From a virus: a stretch of DNA of 32,538 nucleotides. Position numbers and translations under genes: made by a program. The notes beneath the pieces were generated by a model. The model was not told where the DNA came from. It saw only the letters and a program-made list of their open reading frames with translations, and made no database searches. Every line of letters starts with the position of its first letter. Positions within the stretch are counted from its first letter, which is position 1. The DNA is taken from positions 1 to 32,538 of the IMG/VR virus record IMGVR_UViG_3300035698_007423. One strand, written 5' to 3'. Positions 1-32,538 of this stretch are shown here, piece by piece.

Positions 1-123
1 ATAGTATTAGTAGTAGTTACAGTAGTTATAGTCTTTATAGTATTAGTAGTAGTTACAGTAGTTATAGTCTTTATAGTATTAGTAGTAGTTACAGTAGTTA
101 TAGTCTTTATAGTATTAGTAGTA
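1..123. repeat. Terminal direct repeat made of 36-bp tandem units (left copy)
   Basis: Three full copies of a 36-bp unit (1-36, 37-72, 73-108) are followed by 15 bases of a fourth. The unit starts ATAGTATTAGTAGTAG and ends TTATAGTCTTT. These 123 bases are identical to 32416-32538, and the sequence diverges from the unit at base 124. An assembly that starts and ends in one tandem array usually reflects a circular or circularly permuted molecule whose array was not resolved, so the real copy number is unknown. The array is flanked on both sides by AT-rich noncoding DNA and lies where the two gene arms diverge, as expected for a replication origin or control region. That role is inference. Confidence 0.9.
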
Positions 124-825: not shown

Positions 826-1140
826 ATGCCCCTATCCAATGAGATGCGCAAGGATCTTTCGGATATTCATGACAGTCATCGTCGAATGGTTCAAGGAGTG
901 TGCCGATCTTTCTTAAAAAAGTTACCAAGAGAAGATCTCGATGATCTAACACAATATGCATGGGAACGTATCTGTGTCTATTACGATAAATATGCCGAAG
1001 AACGAAGCAGCATCAGTACGTGGATTACCCTAATCTGTCGTTCCGTTATGTATGACCTTATCCGTAAACATAATGCAGAAAAGAGAGGAGCAGGAGTACC
1101 TGATGAATCTCTAAGTAACTACGAGAGTATTATAGGCTAA
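826..1140 (+). CDS. Sigma-70-like protein with region 2 only
   Basis: The 104-aa protein carries what looks like a sigma-70 region 2: an acidic helix matching region 2.1/2.2 (LPREDLDDLTQYAWERI, residues 33-49), the aromatic YYDKY segment, and a region 2.3/2.4-like stretch (STWITLICRSVMYDLIRK, residues 64-81) followed by basic residues. In sigma factors this domain binds the beta' clamp helices and recognises and melts the -10 element. There is no region 4, and the frame ends about 17 residues after the domain, so it is far shorter than ECF sigmas (roughly 160-200 aa). The ribosome binding site is AGGAGAG. As an early gene of a phage without its own RNA polymerase, it could redirect host polymerase to late promoters or act as an anti-host factor. 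Family assignment is by motif reading only. Confidence 0.65.
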   Translation: MPLSNEMRKDLSDIHDSHRRMVQGVCRSFLKKLPREDLDDLTQYAWERICVYYDKYAEERSSISTWITLICRSVMYDLIRKHNAEKRGAGVPDESLSNYESIIG

Positions 1141-2709: not shown

Positions 2710-3003
2710 ATGATTAACTTTATAAGCAAGATGGAAAAAAGAGCGTTATTTTTCGACCTACTTGAATTAATTAGATTTTATGGAAAAACAATGGAAACAG
2801 AAGATACCTCCTTCACCATCCTTGTTATGAAAAATGGAGATGTAGTAGAAATTAACAACAATCATGATTACCTATATAAGCATCACATTAATGGAGATAT
2901 TAAATATTTAAATGAAAGTTCTAACTACAGAGAAATTCCTTCTAACATTTTTGATATCCAGTTGTTAATGTCAGAGATATCAATCGAACACGGGATAATG
3001 TAA
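2710..3003 (+). CDS. Hypothetical protein upstream of primase-helicase
   Basis: This 97-aa protein starts after ACGAGGAG, and its stop overlaps the ATG of the primase-helicase (TAATG), so the two genes are translationally coupled. That matters because the helicase has only a weak ribosome binding site of its own. The sequence has an N-terminal basic/hydrophobic helix and a central beta-like stretch (TSFTILVMKNGDVVEINN). No domain is recognised. A replication-associated role is suggested only by coupling. Confidence 0.7.
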   Translation: MINFISKMEKRALFFDLLELIRFYGKTMETEDTSFTILVMKNGDVVEINNNHDYLYKHHINGDIKYLNESSNYREIPSNIFDIQLLMSEISIEHGIM

Positions 3004-5564
3004 TGAGCAAGTTACTTGAAAAGACTCAGTGTCCCGAGTGTGCCAAAGCAGGAAAAGACACAACTAAAGACAATCTAAGCGTCTATGAGGACGGGTCCTA
3101 CTGTTATGCATGCGGATACACTGATAAGTCTTCAGCAACCACTGAAACACAAGATAAGGAAGAGTCTTCTGGCGTTCCTCAATACTCTTCTGTCGAAAAT
3201 ACAACCTTCATGAAAGGAGACATTGTTGCAATTCCTAGTAGAAAGCTAACCTATGAATCTTTGAGTAAATATAATGTAAAAGTATGTGAGTTTACAGGAC
3301 ACATAAATGCAAATACTTATGTTTATAATGAGACCTGTGTTCTCTTTCCTTTCTACTACAATGGCCAGATTGTTAAACAGAAGCTAAGAACACTGGCTGA
3401 TAGAGGAAAATGTACTCAACTAGGAGACAGTAAAAGTAAATCATTGTTTGGAATGCAAGCGTTTACGCCATCTAAAAAGATTCCTATCATAATTACCGAA
3501 GGAGAGTTTGATGCCGTTGCAGTTCAACAAGCAATGAATTATCCCGCTGTGTCTATCTGTGGAGCAAATAACCTTAAGTTAATCTCAGAAAATATAGAAT
3601 GGCTTAGCGGATGGGCCTATTGCATCTTATGTCTTGATAGTGATGAGGCAGGAGAAAAGTCGACAGCAGAAGCCGTTGGCTTGTTTGAGATAGGAAAGGT
3701 ACGTGTGGCTCATCTTCCTCTGAAAGATCCAAATGATATGGTGATTGCAGGCAGAGAAGAAGAACTTAAACGATGTATCTGGAATGCAGAAATATTAAAA
3801 CCTTCTACTATCGTTAGAATATCGGAGATTAAGAACAGAGTATTAAAGAAGCCTGAGTTTGGATTGCAGTGGCCTTATGAACATATGAATGCTGTAACAA
3901 GAGGACTTATGCCAGGAAGCATGTATACCGTAGCTGCTGCTGAAGGACAAGGAAAGTGTCTTGCCCCCGACACTAAAGTACTCATGCATTCAGGTCGTTA
4001 CAAGCAAGCTAAGAACGTTGTAATGGGAGACATGCTAATGGGTCCGGATAGTTCACCAAGAAAGGTTATTAATCTTGGTTCTGGAAAGGCACCTATGTAT
4101 AAGATCAGTTCAATGAAAGGAATGTCCTATACGGTTAATGATTGTCACCTGTTAACTCTTTGTAGTATCTCAGATGAATTCGGACTCAATGAAGGAGAGT
4201 GGTACGACATCTGTGTAACCGACTATCTTGATATGTCTGCACAGAAACAAGAAGTGCTTAAGGCCGTTCATGTCGCTATTGAATTAGAGCATCATGTGAC
4301 AGAGGACGATCCTTATGCGTATGGCGCTAACTATTGTTCAGGAGAAATAGATTCTCAATATACAATCAATTCTAAAAGAACACGAAAGAAAGTATTAGCG
4401 GGAATGATTGACAGACAAGGCTATGTGATAAAAGAAGGATACATTCTATTCTTATCAGAAACATGCGATACAGAAAATACATTATTCTTAATACGAAGTC
4501 TTGGTTGTTTCGGAAAGTTAATCGAAGAATTCCAAGATAAACTATGCATTCACATCACGGGACCTGTTTGGGAAATACCAACAATAAATGTTATTTGGAG
4601 AAGTTTACCTGATCAGGATAATCGTTTTATAAGCACATCAAGCATTACAGTAACAGAACTGGCCTTGGGAGATTACTGTGGTTTCACCCTACAAGGAGAT
4701 TGTCGATTCCTAGTAGAAGACTTCCAAGTCACTCACAATACAGAGTTTGTTAAAGAACTCGTGTTTCATTTAATTGACAGTGAAGTGAAATGTGGACTGT
4801 TTAGTTTTGAACAAGATGCCGCTAGTACTGTGCAACGTTTTATTGGTTCAAAGTTAAATAAGAGACTGCACTTACCTGATGAAGAATGGTGGGACAGTAA
4901 AATCATTGAAGAACAAATGGACGCTCTTGAAGATAACTTATTCCTGTATGACAACAGAGGAGCACTAAGTCTAGAAAGTATTTGTTTGAATATACGTTAC
5001 TTAGTTAAGTGCTTAGATGTGAAGTTTATTGTTATTGATAACTTAACGGCTCTTTGTGCTAATTCTGTTATTGACGGCAAGACAGTCAATGATGTGACCT
5101 TTATGGGACATGCTGCTAATCAATTTCACAGTCTCATTAAAGAATTAAATGTCTCTGTACTCATTCTATGTCATTTAAACAATGACACGATAGGCAAGCA
5201 GACCTATGTAGGGAAGAATGTTAGCAAGGGAGGATTTATGGATGTCAGTGAAGAAGATTCCAGTAATGCATTCAATCCTCCTGGACTAACGTGGGAAAGT
5301 GGCAGATGTCCTAACCTAACTAATATTTATGGTTCAGGAGCTATTCGAAAACTCTCTGACTATATTATGGTTCTTTATAGAAATAAGATCAGTGAAGATT
5401 TTAATGAACGAAGAACAACCCATGTTAAGTTTCTTAAATCTCGTCTGGATTCTTCATTAGAAGGCTCTGTATTTAAACTAACGTATAACTACGACACAGG
5501 TAGATTGGAGGAAGATTCCTCGCCTTTAAGATCTGTGCCAACTAACGCAAGTTCTGTTATATAA
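3003..5564 (+). CDS. T7 gp4-like DNA primase-helicase, interrupted by an intein
   Basis: The 853-aa precursor contains, in order, an N-terminal zinc-binding site (CPEC at 10-13 and CYAC at 34-37), a TOPRIM primase domain (ITEGEFDAVAV near 164-174 and LDSDEAG near 211-217), and a RecA-like hexameric helicase. The helicase Walker A (AAEGQGK, ending at 318, then T580 and EF) is split by a 261-residue intein at 319-579. After the intein come the H1a-type FSFEQD, the Walker B-like FIVIDN and the GSGAIRKLSD segment typical of T7-type helicases. Without the intein the enzyme is 592 aa, close to T7 gp4. It synthesises RNA primers and unwinds DNA at the fork with the polymerase encoded at 7622. Activity depends on splicing, because the insertion separates K318 from T580 in the ATP-binding loop. 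Start at 3003 overlaps the upstream stop. Confidence 0.93.
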   Translation: MSKLLEKTQCPECAKAGKDTTKDNLSVYEDGSYCYACGYTDKSSATTETQDKEESSGVPQYSSVENTTFMKGDIVAIPSRKLTYESLSKYNVKVCEFTGHINANTYVYNETCVLFPFYYNGQIVKQKLRTLADRGKCTQLGDSKSKSLFGMQAFTPSKKIPIIITEGEFDAVAVQQAMNYPAVSICGANNLKLISENIEWLSGWAYCILCLDSDEAGEKSTAEAVGLFEIGKVRVAHLPLKDPNDMVIAGREEELKRCIWNAEILKPSTIVRISEIKNRVLKKPEFGLQWPYEHMNAVTRGLMPGSMYTVAAAEGQGKCLAPDTKVLMHSGRYKQAKNVVMGDMLMGPDSSPRKVINLGSGKAPMYKISSMKGMSYTVNDCHLLTLCSISDEFGLNEGEWYDICVTDYLDMSAQKQEVLKAVHVAIELEHHVTEDDPYAYGANYCSGEIDSQYTINSKRTRKKVLAGMIDRQGYVIKEGYILFLSETCDTENTLFLIRSLGCFGKLIEEFQDKLCIHITGPVWEIPTINVIWRSLPDQDNRFISTSSITVTELALGDYCGFTLQGDCRFLVEDFQVTHNTEFVKELVFHLIDSEVKCGLFSFEQDAASTVQRFIGSKLNKRLHLPDEEWWDSKIIEEQMDALEDNLFLYDNRGALSLESICLNIRYLVKCLDVKFIVIDNLTALCANSVIDGKTVNDVTFMGHAANQFHSLIKELNVSVLILCHLNNDTIGKQTYVGKNVSKGGFMDVSEEDSSNAFNPPGLTWESGRCPNLTNIYGSGAIRKLSDYIMVLYRNKISEDFNERRTTHVKFLKSRLDSSLEGSVFKLTYNYDTGRLEEDSSPLRSVPTNASSVI
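3957..4739 (+). other. Intein in the helicase Walker A motif with a degenerate LAGLIDADG segment
   Basis: This 261-residue in-frame insert begins with Cys (CLAPDTKVL) directly after GQGK and ends VTHN before the +1 residue Thr. Cys at position 1, the terminal His-Asn and a Ser/Thr/Cys after them are the hallmarks of a class 1 intein. YTVNDCHLL (block B-like) and the C-terminal GDYCGFTLQGDCRFL (block F-like) also fit. In the middle, residues 465-473 read LAGMIDRQG, a single LAGLIDADG-like motif in which the catalytic acidic residue is replaced by Gln. The region is too short for two full motifs. Splicing should therefore be intact while homing activity is probably lost. Confidence 0.9.
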
Positions 5565-7391: not shown

Positions 7392-7613
7392 ATGGATACA
7401 CTTCCTACAAAGACAAAAAAAGAACCTCATCCTAATAATGTACGAGGAGAAACACATCCAAGTGCTAAGTTAACAGAACTAGACATCGCTGTTATTAGAC
7501 GTATGTATAAAACAGGAAATTACCTACAACGACATCTAGCTGCTATATTTAAAATAAGCTCTAGTCATATGAACCATATTGTTAACAATAAAGTTTGGAA
7601 GCATCTCAAATAG
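7392..7613 (+). CDS. Small helix-turn-helix protein resembling HNH-endonuclease HTH tails
   Basis: The 73-aa protein carries the signature GETHPSAKLTELDIAVIRRM, then a gapped helix-turn-helix (QRHLAAIFKISSSHMNHIV, residues about 45-63) and ends NKVWKHLK. The same GE-x-HP-x-AKLT/HTH/K-x-W pattern is common at the C-terminus of phage HNH homing endonucleases. Here the HNH nuclease part is absent, so this is a stand-alone DNA-binding domain, either a regulator or a remnant of a homing endonuclease beside the polymerase gene. Ribosome binding site AAAGGAG. Confidence 0.7.
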   Translation: MDTLPTKTKKEPHPNNVRGETHPSAKLTELDIAVIRRMYKTGNYLQRHLAAIFKISSSHMNHIVNNKVWKHLK

Positions 7614-7621
7614 GGGGTTTT

Positions 7622-9589
7622 ATGAAAAGTATTCAAAACGAACCGTTTAAGTTTACCGATAACTTTGTAGTCTTTGATTATGAAACCAGAGATAGTGCTA
7701 TTTCAAATAAGATGGGAGCAGGATGGCCTTACGCTATTTTGTATCCCAATACATTGGAGTGTTTCTCTCTTGGAGCAGGCTACTATCAAAAGAAGGGCCA
7801 TGTAGCACTAGGTCCTACCTTTACCGAAGACTTTACTGTTCCTGATGGAACTAATCATTTGGTAGCTCATAATCTTCTTTATGATCTTGGTTGGTACTTA
7901 GCGTCTAAATCAAAAGGGAAAGAAGACGCTTTAGCACAGCTCAGAAGTCTTTATAATAAAGGGGTTATCTTAATCGATACCATTGTGTTGGCTAAATTAG
8001 TGGATGAATTCGATCTAAACTATTCACTTAAGACGCTGGCCATTAAGTATAAGGTTAGTCAGAAATCAGAACATTTATTAGCAGATGCAGTATTTGATAC
8101 TGGTTTATATACTGAACTCAAAAGTACTGCTTCTCGTAAGTTTGTGAACAGACCCTCTAATGATTCTGTATTACTTAAGCTTGCTTATCAAAACATGCAC
8201 AGACTGCCTAAAGACATTGTAGAACAATATTGCTTGGATGATATTACTGCAACAAAAGAACTGTACCTGAAACTGCTAAAGCATCTTAGAAGTGAATATT
8301 CTGATGAACAACTGTCTATCCTAATCAACCGGTATTCAGAACTGCATTATTGTTTAGCAGAAATACGTATTAATGGCATGACTATTGACAACACTAAACT
8401 AAAGGAGAATCACAGTAAGTTATGTTCTATGGCGGCTAATGCACAACAAGAACTTAACGGTGAATTACAAATGGAAGTTAATGTCTCTGCTACTGCAAGT
8501 CTTGTGGAAGCATTCACGAAATCCGGATTTACGGATATCCCTGTTACTAGTACGGGAAGGTCTTCTATTACTCAATCATGGTTAGAAACTCACGACAGTG
8601 ATCTTGCTAAAAAAGTACTTCGTATTCGTAAGCTGAACAAAATTATTGGTACCTTCATTGAAAATCTAATGGCGGTTCAAGATAACCTACAACTTTCCGA
8701 AGAAACGCAAGGAAAGGTCCACGGGGAATTCAATGTATTTGGGACACATACAGGACGATTCAGTAGTTCTAATCCTAATCTACAACAAATCCCTAAGAGA
8801 GATCCTGAGTTCTATAAAGTATGCAGGAGCATGTTCATAGCGGGTAAGGATAAAACGTTTATCTCTGCGGATTACAGCAATCAAGAACAACGTATTCAGA
8901 TACACTATGGCAAGCTATTGAATTGCAAAGGAGCCGATGAACTATGTTCCGCGTGGAATAATGATCCCTTACTTGATTTCCATCAGAAAGTAGCTGATAT
9001 TGTGGGGATAGCAAGAACACCTGCTAAAACGATTAACTTGGGGAAATCCTATGGAATGGGAGATGCTAAATTGTGTCACAGTTTGGGGTTACCAACTGTA
9101 ATACGTAAAATAATAAAGGGAGACCAAGAAATTGAAAAAGAAATGGCAGGTCCCGAAGGTAAAGACATTATTGAGAAGTATAATCGACTCTTTCCCTTCC
9201 TTTCTGAAGCAACCTCTATTTGCAGAGAAGTAATGCAAGCAAGAGGCTATCTTAAATCATTGGGAGGAAGACATATCCATCCAGAAAGATTCAAAGAGAA
9301 TAATCGAACTATTAAGAAATACTTTAAAGCATTTAATCAGCTGATACAGGGATCTGCAGCAGATATGACTATATGTGCAATGGCAAAGTATTGGAGAGCT
9401 AAAGCAACTAACCCTGAATTACAGATTGAATTAGTAGGCTGTGTTCATGATGAGCTATTATTTGTTGTTCCAAAGGAAACTGAAAAGCAAGCAGTTTCCG
9501 CTATACGAGAGTTCATGGAAGAAGCCATAGTGACTGAGGTACCAATGGTAACAGATGTTGCAGTAGGCAGCAGCTGGTATGAAAACTAA
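7622..9589 (+). CDS. Family A DNA polymerase with 3'-5' exonuclease
   Basis: The 655-aa enzyme has a DnaQ-like proofreading domain (D19-Y-E21; HNLLYDLGW; YCLDD) and a complete polymerase domain: motif A ADYSNQEQR with D417, motif B AKTINLGKSYGMG, and motif C VHDELL with H609-D610-E611. It lacks the N-terminal 5'-3' exonuclease of bacterial Pol I; that activity is encoded separately at 11210. The motif B residue equivalent to E. coli Phe762 is Leu473, a variant reported as common among marine viral polymerases. The first in-frame ATG (7595) lies within the previous gene; ATG 7622 follows TAGGGGG and is preferred. With the gp4-like helicase it forms a T7-style replisome. Confidence 0.95.
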   Translation: MKSIQNEPFKFTDNFVVFDYETRDSAISNKMGAGWPYAILYPNTLECFSLGAGYYQKKGHVALGPTFTEDFTVPDGTNHLVAHNLLYDLGWYLASKSKGKEDALAQLRSLYNKGVILIDTIVLAKLVDEFDLNYSLKTLAIKYKVSQKSEHLLADAVFDTGLYTELKSTASRKFVNRPSNDSVLLKLAYQNMHRLPKDIVEQYCLDDITATKELYLKLLKHLRSEYSDEQLSILINRYSELHYCLAEIRINGMTIDNTKLKENHSKLCSMAANAQQELNGELQMEVNVSATASLVEAFTKSGFTDIPVTSTGRSSITQSWLETHDSDLAKKVLRIRKLNKIIGTFIENLMAVQDNLQLSEETQGKVHGEFNVFGTHTGRFSSSNPNLQQIPKRDPEFYKVCRSMFIAGKDKTFISADYSNQEQRIQIHYGKLLNCKGADELCSAWNNDPLLDFHQKVADIVGIARTPAKTINLGKSYGMGDAKLCHSLGLPTVIRKIIKGDQEIEKEMAGPEGKDIIEKYNRLFPFLSEATSICREVMQARGYLKSLGGRHIHPERFKENNRTIKKYFKAFNQLIQGSAADMTICAMAKYWRAKATNPELQIELVGCVHDELLFVVPKETEKQAVSAIREFMEEAIVTEVPMVTDVAVGSSWYEN

Positions 9590-9616
9590 TCTAATTCCAT
9601 GACTCTGGAGAGTGCT

Positions 9617-9997
9617 ATGACCCATTCAATAAAAGGGATAAATCCCAAAGATATATCGGGGGCCCGGAAACCCAATATCAGTTTAGTTCCTTCCTCTGCC
9701 ATCATTGGTATCGCCGACTGTATGCAAGACGGTGCTAAAAAGTATGGTCCTTATAATTGGCGAGATCCCCAATATCCTGTGCAATACACCACATACCTAA
9801 GCGCTGCAATGCGACACATCAGTTCTTTCCTAGATGGAGAGGATAGCGCATCAGATAGTGGAAAAGATCACTTAGCGCACGCCTTAAGCGGCTTATGTGT
9901 GTTATATGATGCGATTGCAGTTGGGAATGCGGTGGATGATCGCCCAATCCCCGGAAAAACTGCGGCGTTGATAGAATACTTCACCAATAAACAGTGA
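9617..9997 (+). CDS. MazG-like dATP/dGTP pyrophosphohydrolase-type protein (DUF5664-like)
   Basis: The 126-aa protein matches the all-alpha family annotated as dATP/dGTP diphosphohydrolase N-terminal domain. It has an N-terminal KPNISLVPSSAI segment, KYGPYNWR (residues about 43-50), and the helix pair carrying AAMRHISSFLDGED and GKDHLAHALSG, with acidic and His residues placed for metal-nucleotide binding. Such enzymes hydrolyse dNTPs or shape the nucleotide pool. In-frame ATG 9599 precedes CTCTGGAGAG, which is the ribosome binding site for ATG 9617, so I use 9617. There is no PurZ-like gene in the window, so a 2-aminoadenine genome is not supported. Confidence 0.75.
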   Translation: MTHSIKGINPKDISGARKPNISLVPSSAIIGIADCMQDGAKKYGPYNWRDPQYPVQYTTYLSAAMRHISSFLDGEDSASDSGKDHLAHALSGLCVLYDAIAVGNAVDDRPIPGKTAALIEYFTNKQ

Positions 9998-10004
9998 GGC
10001 TATC

Positions 10005-11213
10005 ATGTCAAAGAGCAATCCATACTCAGGATGGGATGATGCCGTCTTTAACTATGTTACTGCCTGTCCTGCTGATCACACCAGTCATCAGGAATCCCTC
10101 CCAACCACTGAATTAATAGAACTTATTCCTCCTAAAAAGATGGTTCAAGCATTAAATGAAACCGTCATTGGACAAGATAAAGCAAAACAACTGGTCTCTA
10201 TTGCTGTTTGGAATCGACTCCTATCGTTCAATAACTCAATTCTAAATAGGGATTCAGATGAGTTCTTCTTTGAAAAGAATAACATGCTGTTGGTGGGCAG
10301 TAGTGGTTGTGGAAAAACCCATCTTATCAATAGCTTAGCTAAGATTGTTAGTCTTCCCGTTATTGTTGAAGATGCGACTTCTTTTACCTCTGCAGGGTAT
10401 TCAGGCAGAGATGTCAATGAATGTATTGAAAATATTGTGAAGGCAGCAGAGATCCTGTTACAGAATCAAATTAAAGAGAAGGGAATCTATATCTCAGAAG
10501 GTCGACGTAGTGGCCTTCTTAAATCAATTGCAGAATATGGAATTATCTATATCGATGAAGCAGATAAACTCAGAACACATGCAGAGGGTAACGGAAGAGA
10601 TGTAAGAGGATTAGCCGTTCAAGAATCTTTCCTAAGAATGGTGGAAGGAAGTGAAATTGATGTCGATATTCCAGGATTTAGAGGCAGGATTAATACAAAG
10701 AATATGTTGTTTATCTTTGGGGGAGCTTTCAGTGAAATCAATAAAGTACTGGAGAAACGGCTCAATAAAAAATCCTCTATTGGTTTTACTTCAAAGCCTG
10801 TTGAAAAGAATATCTGTCGAACTAATCTCTTAAAACACGTTATCACAGAAGACTTTATTCAATATGGAATGATGACAGAACTTATGGGCAGATTGCCTTC
10901 TGTTGCTATCTTAGAAGATTTAACGCCAGATCACATCCGACGAATTATGGTGGAACCAAGAGGATCTATTGTTTCACAACTTGTGAACGAGTTTAAGTCC
11001 TATGGAGCAACTGTATCCTTTGATGATTCTGCTATCGACTATATTGTAGAAGAAGCCATTACATTAAAGTTAGGAGCACGAGGATTAAAATCAATCTGTC
11101 AGTCTTTTCTCAGGCCATTAATGTATTTACTCCCCTCTGTTGACTGTCCAGCACCCGTTACAGTAACCCGCCAGATGCTTGAAGAATTTAGTCAAATAGA
11201 AGGAGACTTATGA
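10005..11213 (+). CDS. ClpX-like AAA+ unfoldase
   Basis: The 402-aa protein aligns by eye along the ClpX AAA+ module. Seen are VIGQDKAK (residues 54-61), Walker A GSSGCGKT (98-105), a GYSG pore loop (131-134; GYVG in ClpX), Walker B IIYIDEAD (180-187), the GGAF segment (239-242), SIGF (258-261) in the position of the ClpP-docking IGF loop, the arginine-finger region MGRLP, and sensor II GARGLKSI (357-364). The N-terminal zinc-binding domain used by ClpX for some adaptors is absent and replaced by about 40 unrelated residues. A short insert precedes Walker B. It should be a hexameric ATP-driven unfoldase that could dock onto host ClpP. HslU is less likely because it lacks the IGF loop and has a large I domain. 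Confidence 0.88.
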   Translation: MSKSNPYSGWDDAVFNYVTACPADHTSHQESLPTTELIELIPPKKMVQALNETVIGQDKAKQLVSIAVWNRLLSFNNSILNRDSDEFFFEKNNMLLVGSSGCGKTHLINSLAKIVSLPVIVEDATSFTSAGYSGRDVNECIENIVKAAEILLQNQIKEKGIYISEGRRSGLLKSIAEYGIIYIDEADKLRTHAEGNGRDVRGLAVQESFLRMVEGSEIDVDIPGFRGRINTKNMLFIFGGAFSEINKVLEKRLNKKSSIGFTSKPVEKNICRTNLLKHVITEDFIQYGMMTELMGRLPSVAILEDLTPDHIRRIMVEPRGSIVSQLVNEFKSYGATVSFDDSAIDYIVEEAITLKLGARGLKSICQSFLRPLMYLLPSVDCPAPVTVTRQMLEEFSQIEGDL

Positions 11214-12049
11214 TTATTCCAATTGGTATGAAAGGAAACCGGATAATGGAATTAGATGCAGATTCATTGATATATCGAGCTGCATTCTCTGCTCAACAAT
11301 CTGTGGATACCGAGTCTTTTGCCTTGTATTTAATTAATCGAATATTAGGAGAAATCTATGAAGATACTACCTGTTTAAAATGTAATATCTATTTAGGCAG
11401 TAAAACTAATTTCAGAAATGAAATAGCAACACTCTATCCCTATAAAGGCAATCGATCTAATCGAGAACGGCCTTCCTACTTTGACCTGATCCGTAATTAC
11501 TTAATAGATGACTGTGGTGCCATTGTTGTCGAACAGCAAGAAGCAGAAGATGCGGTTGGCATTGAAGCAATTAAACATGACTCATATGATGACTATTGGG
11601 TAGGAGCTATCGATAAAGACGTACGCATGATACCAGGACACCACTATAACTACATCAAGCGTACTTTTGAATTTATTGAACCAATTCAAGCACTTAGGTG
11701 TTTTTATGGACAACTCGCAACAGGAGACAAAGGGGTGGATAACATTCCAGGTGCTTATCATTTACTTCAATTAGATGGACTGGAAGAAGAGGCAAGACTC
11801 TTTAAGAATAGTCGTTATAAATCAAAAGTAATTAAAGAACTAGAACAGTGTAATACCGAAATAGAAATGTGGAATATTCTATATGCTTTGTATGTAAGCA
11901 CGGGAGAGATAGAACGGCATGGAGAAACAAGAATGCTTGAAATAGCTAGATTGCTATGGATACGACGATACGAAGATGAGCTATGGGTTCCCCCAACACA
12001 GAGAAAGTATGATTACATTTCAACAGAAGCACACAAACAGTTAGCTTGA
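11210..12049 (+). CDS. 5'-3' exonuclease / flap endonuclease (T7 gp6-like PIN-type)
   Basis: The 279-aa protein has the motif series of phage 5' nucleases: LDADSLIYRAAF near the N-terminus, YKGNR (helical gateway), EAEDAVG, AIDKDVRMIPG and GDKGVDNIPG, which supply the acidic metal ligands and the helix-hairpin DNA contact. It removes RNA primers and degrades host or displaced DNA, complementing the polymerase, which lacks this domain. The ATG overlaps the ClpX-like stop (ATGA) and follows GAAGGAG, implying coupling. A second Met at 11246 is possible but has a poorer ribosome binding site. Confidence 0.9.
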   Translation: MIIPIGMKGNRIMELDADSLIYRAAFSAQQSVDTESFALYLINRILGEIYEDTTCLKCNIYLGSKTNFRNEIATLYPYKGNRSNRERPSYFDLIRNYLIDDCGAIVVEQQEAEDAVGIEAIKHDSYDDYWVGAIDKDVRMIPGHHYNYIKRTFEFIEPIQALRCFYGQLATGDKGVDNIPGAYHLLQLDGLEEEARLFKNSRYKSKVIKELEQCNTEIEMWNILYALYVSTGEIERHGETRMLEIARLLWIRRYEDELWVPPTQRKYDYISTEAHKQLA

Positions 12050-32415: not shown

Positions 32416-32538
32416 ATAGTATTAGTAGTAGTTACAGTAGTTATAGTCTTTATAGTATTAGTAGTAGTTACAGTAGTTATAGTCTTTATAGTATTAGTAG
32501 TAGTTACAGTAGTTATAGTCTTTATAGTATTAGTAGTA
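32416..32538. repeat. Terminal direct repeat made of 36-bp tandem units (right copy)
   Basis: Units at 32416-32451, 32452-32487 and 32488-32523 plus 15 bases of a fourth are identical to 1-123. When the ends are joined, the genome closes into a circle of 32415 bp with at least 3.4 units. See the left copy for interpretation. Confidence 0.9.

Follow-up and report, generated by a model that had tools for sequence, protein, structure and literature searches.

A divergent ClpX-type AAA+ protein in a phage replication operon, with a putative ClpP-docking IGF loop

The locus and its genome

The window analysed here is the whole of a 32,538-base virus record, which carries terminase, portal, head, tail, amidase and replication genes. 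Its two ends are an identical direct repeat of 123 bases built from 36-base tandem units (Table 1). The genome looks near-complete, and the end repeat could be either a terminal redundancy or an assembly join made inside the repeat.

The clpX-like gene lies 3' of the polymerase and diphosphohydrolase-like genes with only short gaps between them, and the sequence AAGGAG occurs within its own 3' end, ahead of the start of the exonuclease gene. The placement in a replication operon that the earlier note had proposed stands, and the overlap with the exonuclease gene was seen as well. A scan for promoters and terminators gave fewer sites than were found in shuffles and was uninformative. Comparison with near kin was impossible because the polymerase had no close relatives in the viral contigs and the minor head protein had a single one there, at 32% identity.

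Three other genes of the window deserve mention in their own right. The PHROG label of the diphosphohydrolase-like protein, 'endolysin; inhibits RNA polymerase', looks misleading. The primase-helicase carries an intein-like insertion (Pfam Hom_end_hint) that interrupts the Walker A motif of its DnaB-type helicase (GQGK/C...HN/T), and a protein with Sigma-70 region 2 is a possible phage sigma factor.

Table 1. Positions of the features discussed, in window coordinates; residue numbers are those of the ClpX-like protein.
Feature	Position	Strand	Detail
Direct repeat, first copy	1-123		123 bases
Sigma-70 region 2 protein	826-1140	+	
Primase-helicase	3003-5564	+	intein-like insertion
Family-A DNA polymerase	7595-9589	+	clpX operon
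dATP/dGTP diphosphohydrolase-like gene	9599-9997	+	PF18909; 7 bases upstream of clpX
clpX-like gene	10005-11213	+	one open frame; AAA+ unfoldase of 402 residues
Walker A, GSSGCGKT	10296-10319	+	residues 98-105
Pore-1 loop, GYSG	10395-10406	+	residues 131-134; relatives almost all have GYVG
Insert-bearing segment	10452-10529	+	residues 150-175; 26 residues versus 5 in viral ClpX
Walker B, IIYIDE	10542-10559	+	residues 180-185
Shortened RKH region	10650-10694	+	residues 216-230; 15 residues versus median 22
SIGF in the docking loop, putative ClpP-docking tripeptide	10776-10787	+	residues 258-261
Arginine-finger box, GRLP	10887-10898	+	residues 295-298 (R296)
Sensor 2, GAR	11073-11081	+	residues 357-359 (R359)
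5'-3' exonuclease	11210-12049	+	start overlaps clpX stop (ATGA)
Direct repeat, second copy	32416-32538		123 bases

A ClpX-type protein that lacks the zinc domain and the RKH motif

By profile and by predicted fold the window protein is a ClpX-type AAA+ protein, with HslU clearly behind. Its best NCBIfam profile matches are to ClpX (PRK05342, 1e-85; TIGR00382, 3.5e-76) and HslU follows at 5.4e-44, while a sequence search of the PDB gave 8e-57 for ClpX against 8e-37 for HslU. The Pfam domains are AAA_2 and ClpB_D2-small. An AlphaFold model (mean pLDDT 87.6, pTM 0.86) based on 64 viral sequences matched, in Foldseek, the ClpX chains of ClpXP complexes with an E-value of about 1e-27 and a TM-score of up to 0.88 by target length. 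An origin from HslU, or a hybrid of ClpX and HslU, was rejected because each half of the protein taken alone scores higher with ClpX (106.9 versus 80.3 bits and 183.9 versus 74.2 bits). The earlier note had called the protein a ClpX-like unfoldase while allowing that a profile search might bring it closer to another AAA+ family, and here ClpX gave the best match for the whole protein, for both halves and for the fold. The protein is nevertheless below the curated ClpX equivalog cut-offs (288.2 against 359 and 256.9 against 370.75), as it is below that of HslU (150.8 against 362.45 bits).

The Walker A and Walker B motifs, the arginine finger and sensor 2 are all intact. The pore-1 loop has serine in place of the valine of the usual motif and retains the aromatic residue. 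No C4 zinc motif was found in the protein; the zinc-binding domain is absent from the N-terminus, where residues 1-26 are predicted to be disordered (AlphaFold pLDDT <50). On the AAA+ motifs and on the missing zinc domain the earlier note was right, but it did not mention that the RKH loop is lost, that there is an insert predicted as a helical hairpin, that the protein is extremely divergent or that the third ClpP contact is changed. The RKH motif is absent from a region that is 7 residues shorter than the median and is a plain beta hairpin in the model.

Just before Walker B there is an insert of 21 residues that was found only in the window protein among the 64 aligned viral ClpX sequences, and that is predicted with high model confidence to be a helical hairpin (helices 139-159 and 165-177). 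The I-domain of HslU is located between Walker A and Walker B, so the position of the insert is suggestive of the place of that domain, and the alignments of the window protein with HslU extend up to it. The two proteins also have a related AAA+ core and the NR and GRDV residues in common. However, the insert is not a full I-domain, the window protein carries an IGF loop, and an HslV-type C-terminal tail was not seen in it.

When set against bacterial ClpX (E. coli, ClpXP), the window protein shares the AAA+ core, its motifs and an IGF docking loop of similar spacing. It differs by having no zinc domain and no RKH loop, GYSG for GYVG, proline at the position of Val274, the 21-residue insert, a score below the equivalog level and changes at 13 of 67 near-invariant positions, the highest number among 78 sequences (median 1). 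It is the most divergent protein among the viral and bacterial ClpX aligned, with an end branch of 3.36 in the tree (median 0.43), and because of this long branch its place in the tree has no support. The best identity to any sequence found is no more than 38-39%. In the genome contigs searched for close relatives there was one match only, at 25%, and no close bacterial copy.

Viral relatives and the docking loop

Phage-encoded ClpX is already known and is not rare. It has been noted in jumbo phages, with translocases or virion assembly as suggested roles (PMC7824862), and a role in replication was suggested for that of a Sinorhizobium jumbo phage (PMC11242549). Of 600 candidate stretches from viral contigs at least 482 encode relatives, and the gene recurs beside replication genes, so the earlier note went too far in calling such a homologue in a replication operon unusual. 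What is unusual is a siphophage of 32.5 kb with clpX, since among the matches listed from an annotated phage collection every apparently genuine copy in a named phage belongs to a genome of more than 284 kb, and the smaller clpX records listed there were fragments or looked bacterial. Among the viral contigs, 51 of the 80 relatives kept (of the at least 482) are on contigs shorter than 100 kb, and a large share of these contigs may be fragments. The small 'phage' records with clpX (MT83xxxx, OR84xxxx and MD-2021a) were considered as possible small-phage relatives; bacterial neighbours were seen in L004, L005 and L015, and records of this kind were not used as evidence on viruses. In several records labelled phage (MT835487, MT835536, CAKLQH020000005 and similar) clpX is of bacterial type and lies among bacterial genes, in one arrangement tig-clpP-clpX-lon, and the DNA is apparently bacterial.

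The jumbo-phage proteins (Atu_ph07 AUZ94814.1, Bacillus phage G gp258, PA5oct and Lak; PMC7824862) have an IGF-type tripeptide and belong to phrog_4339, as does the window protein; the label of this PHROG, in which phage ClpX proteins are gathered, is 'unknown function'. Unlike the window protein, most of these copies have the zinc domain, and the hairpin insert is absent from them in the alignment. In the 63 aligned viral ClpX proteins the zinc motif is present in 55 and an RK-type motif in 44. Six have neither zinc domain nor RK-type motif and keep IGF, and these include, besides L022, T4-like (L040, L063 and L079) and T7-like (L054 and L092) members that resemble the window protein in all three respects, with replication-gene neighbours in L040, L063 and L092 as well. 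However, the T4-like and T7-like proteins score above the ClpX cut-off in the cases tested (412 and 444 bits), keep GYVG, have no insert and are about 31-37% identical to the window protein. A literature search of partial coverage found no paper on a phage ClpX that bears IGF and has neither zinc domain nor RKH loop.

In bacteria ClpX is the motor by which proteins are delivered to the ClpP protease. The earlier note had claimed that the ClpP-docking IGF motif is kept, and this holds, with one reservation. SIGF lies in the docking loop, and its spacing equals the median of the 63 viral proteins (6 residues from R to I and 21 from F to D). The residues through which E. coli ClpX packs into ClpP are I268, F270 and V274 (PMC7112951). 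Only the isoleucine and phenylalanine keep their exact places in the window protein, whereas the third contact, a V, I or L in the majority of viral relatives, is Pro265; Val266 could replace it only given a slip in register. Across the viral ClpX proteins the entropies of I, G and F are 0.95, 0.0 and 0.46 bits compared to about 3 bits in the surrounding loop, and the three residues are retained within this hypervariable loop in 62 of the 63 relatives. The IGF tripeptide thus appears, from the alignment, to be under selection in viral ClpX. In the window protein it could be a remnant of ancestry, although the length of the branch makes such passive retention less likely.

Only 3 of the 63 viral loci (L047, L056 and L061) have a ClpP gene at a distance of about 6 kb or less from clpX, a fourth such locus (L066) being probably bacterial, and this rarity is what one would expect of proteins that pair with host ClpP. 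Phage G also encodes ClpP, but the window proteins scanned, which were all but some small ORFs, gave no ClpP-type protease, so docking would be on the ClpP of the host.

The one exception to the retention of IGF is a ClpX-like protein of 310 residues (L002, 9983-10915) that has neither the zinc domain nor the docking loop, and whose gene is placed between helicase-like and polymerase genes. Since the whole loop is missing, a viral ClpX independent of ClpP probably exists. The neighbours of viral clpX genes include a translation initiation factor, which is the commonest annotated one among those sampled, Hsp20, exonucleases, topoisomerase II and a helicase loader; we claim no enrichment of any of them.

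Possible roles of the window protein

The reading we prefer, with a probability of roughly 0.58, is that the window protein is a phage unfoldase that would dock on host ClpP with its own choice of substrates. The gene product would be a working hexameric unfoldase and translocase of the ClpX type, made alongside the replication proteins, which would dock through its IGF loop and give host ClpP substrates other than those of host ClpX. ClpX uses the RKH loop and the zinc domain to read ssrA and substrates delivered by adaptors. With both absent, the window protein would not read ssrA as E. coli ClpX does, and would ignore host adaptors that need the zinc domain; these losses, together with the new hairpin, suggest altered substrates, which may be phage replication proteins or proteins of the host that oppose replication. 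The disordered N-terminus and the helical hairpin on the large AAA+ domain would be the likely substitute substrate-reading parts. The protein thereby probably redirects the destruction of proteins in the host. The fuller proposal, in which the motor takes over host ClpP and reprograms it with a reader of its own (the disordered N-terminus and the hairpin, sited where HslU has its I-domain) standing in for the zinc domain and RKH loop, is a tentative one. Three observations speak against docking on host ClpP, namely that Pro265 replaces a hydrophobic third contact, that the score is below the equivalog level and that L002 does without the loop.

By a second explanation, the protein would act without ClpP and disassemble or load phage replication complexes, the IGF loop being dispensable. 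Host ClpX is itself a remodeller of the Mu transpososome. The position of clpX between the polymerase and dNTPase genes on one side and the exonuclease gene, whose start it overlaps, on the other is in keeping with such a role, and other viral clpX genes adjoin genes for exonuclease, helicase loader or topoisomerase II. The weakening of the ClpP contact by Pro265 and the loss of the entire docking loop in L002, together with this replication context, speak for the ClpP-free alternative. However, the tripeptide and both loop spacings of the window protein have been kept despite strong divergence elsewhere, and the commonest neighbour sampled is not a replication gene, so we judge this explanation possible but less likely than the first.

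A decoy that fills the clefts of ClpP, or that mixes into the rings of host ClpX and so blocks degradation by ClpXP, would also account for a docking tripeptide kept while the zinc domain and RKH loop for host substrates are missing. This we consider improbable, as a pure decoy has no need of intact Walker A, Walker B, arginine finger and sensor 2 motifs, and an identity of about 35% makes mixing with host subunits unlikely. Even less probable, to the point that we give it little weight, is a host clpX captured recently and now decaying with no phage function. Apart from the missing domain nothing specific favours it, and it is at odds with an open frame that has all motifs, with the low identity to any sequence, the very long branch and the lack of a close bacterial copy, and with a tightly packed operon in which stop and start overlap.

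Against the Clp proteases of the host, the known tactics of phages rely mostly on inhibitors or adaptors of small size. If our preferred reading of host-ClpP docking is true, an entire unfoldase in which just the plug for ClpP is retained would redirect host proteolysis directly. The retention of IGF in viral ClpX proteins that mostly have no ClpP nearby makes the supply of motors by phages for the host protease a question that can be tested with single-residue mutants.

One more ClpX-like protein lacking the zinc domain was seen in a Sulfurimonas MAG contig (L102, 189-3457), where NSMGF stands at the IGF site. The gene is followed by MotA/ZorA-like and MotB-OmpA/ZorB-like genes and, as judged by eye, is possibly part of a Zorya-like cluster.
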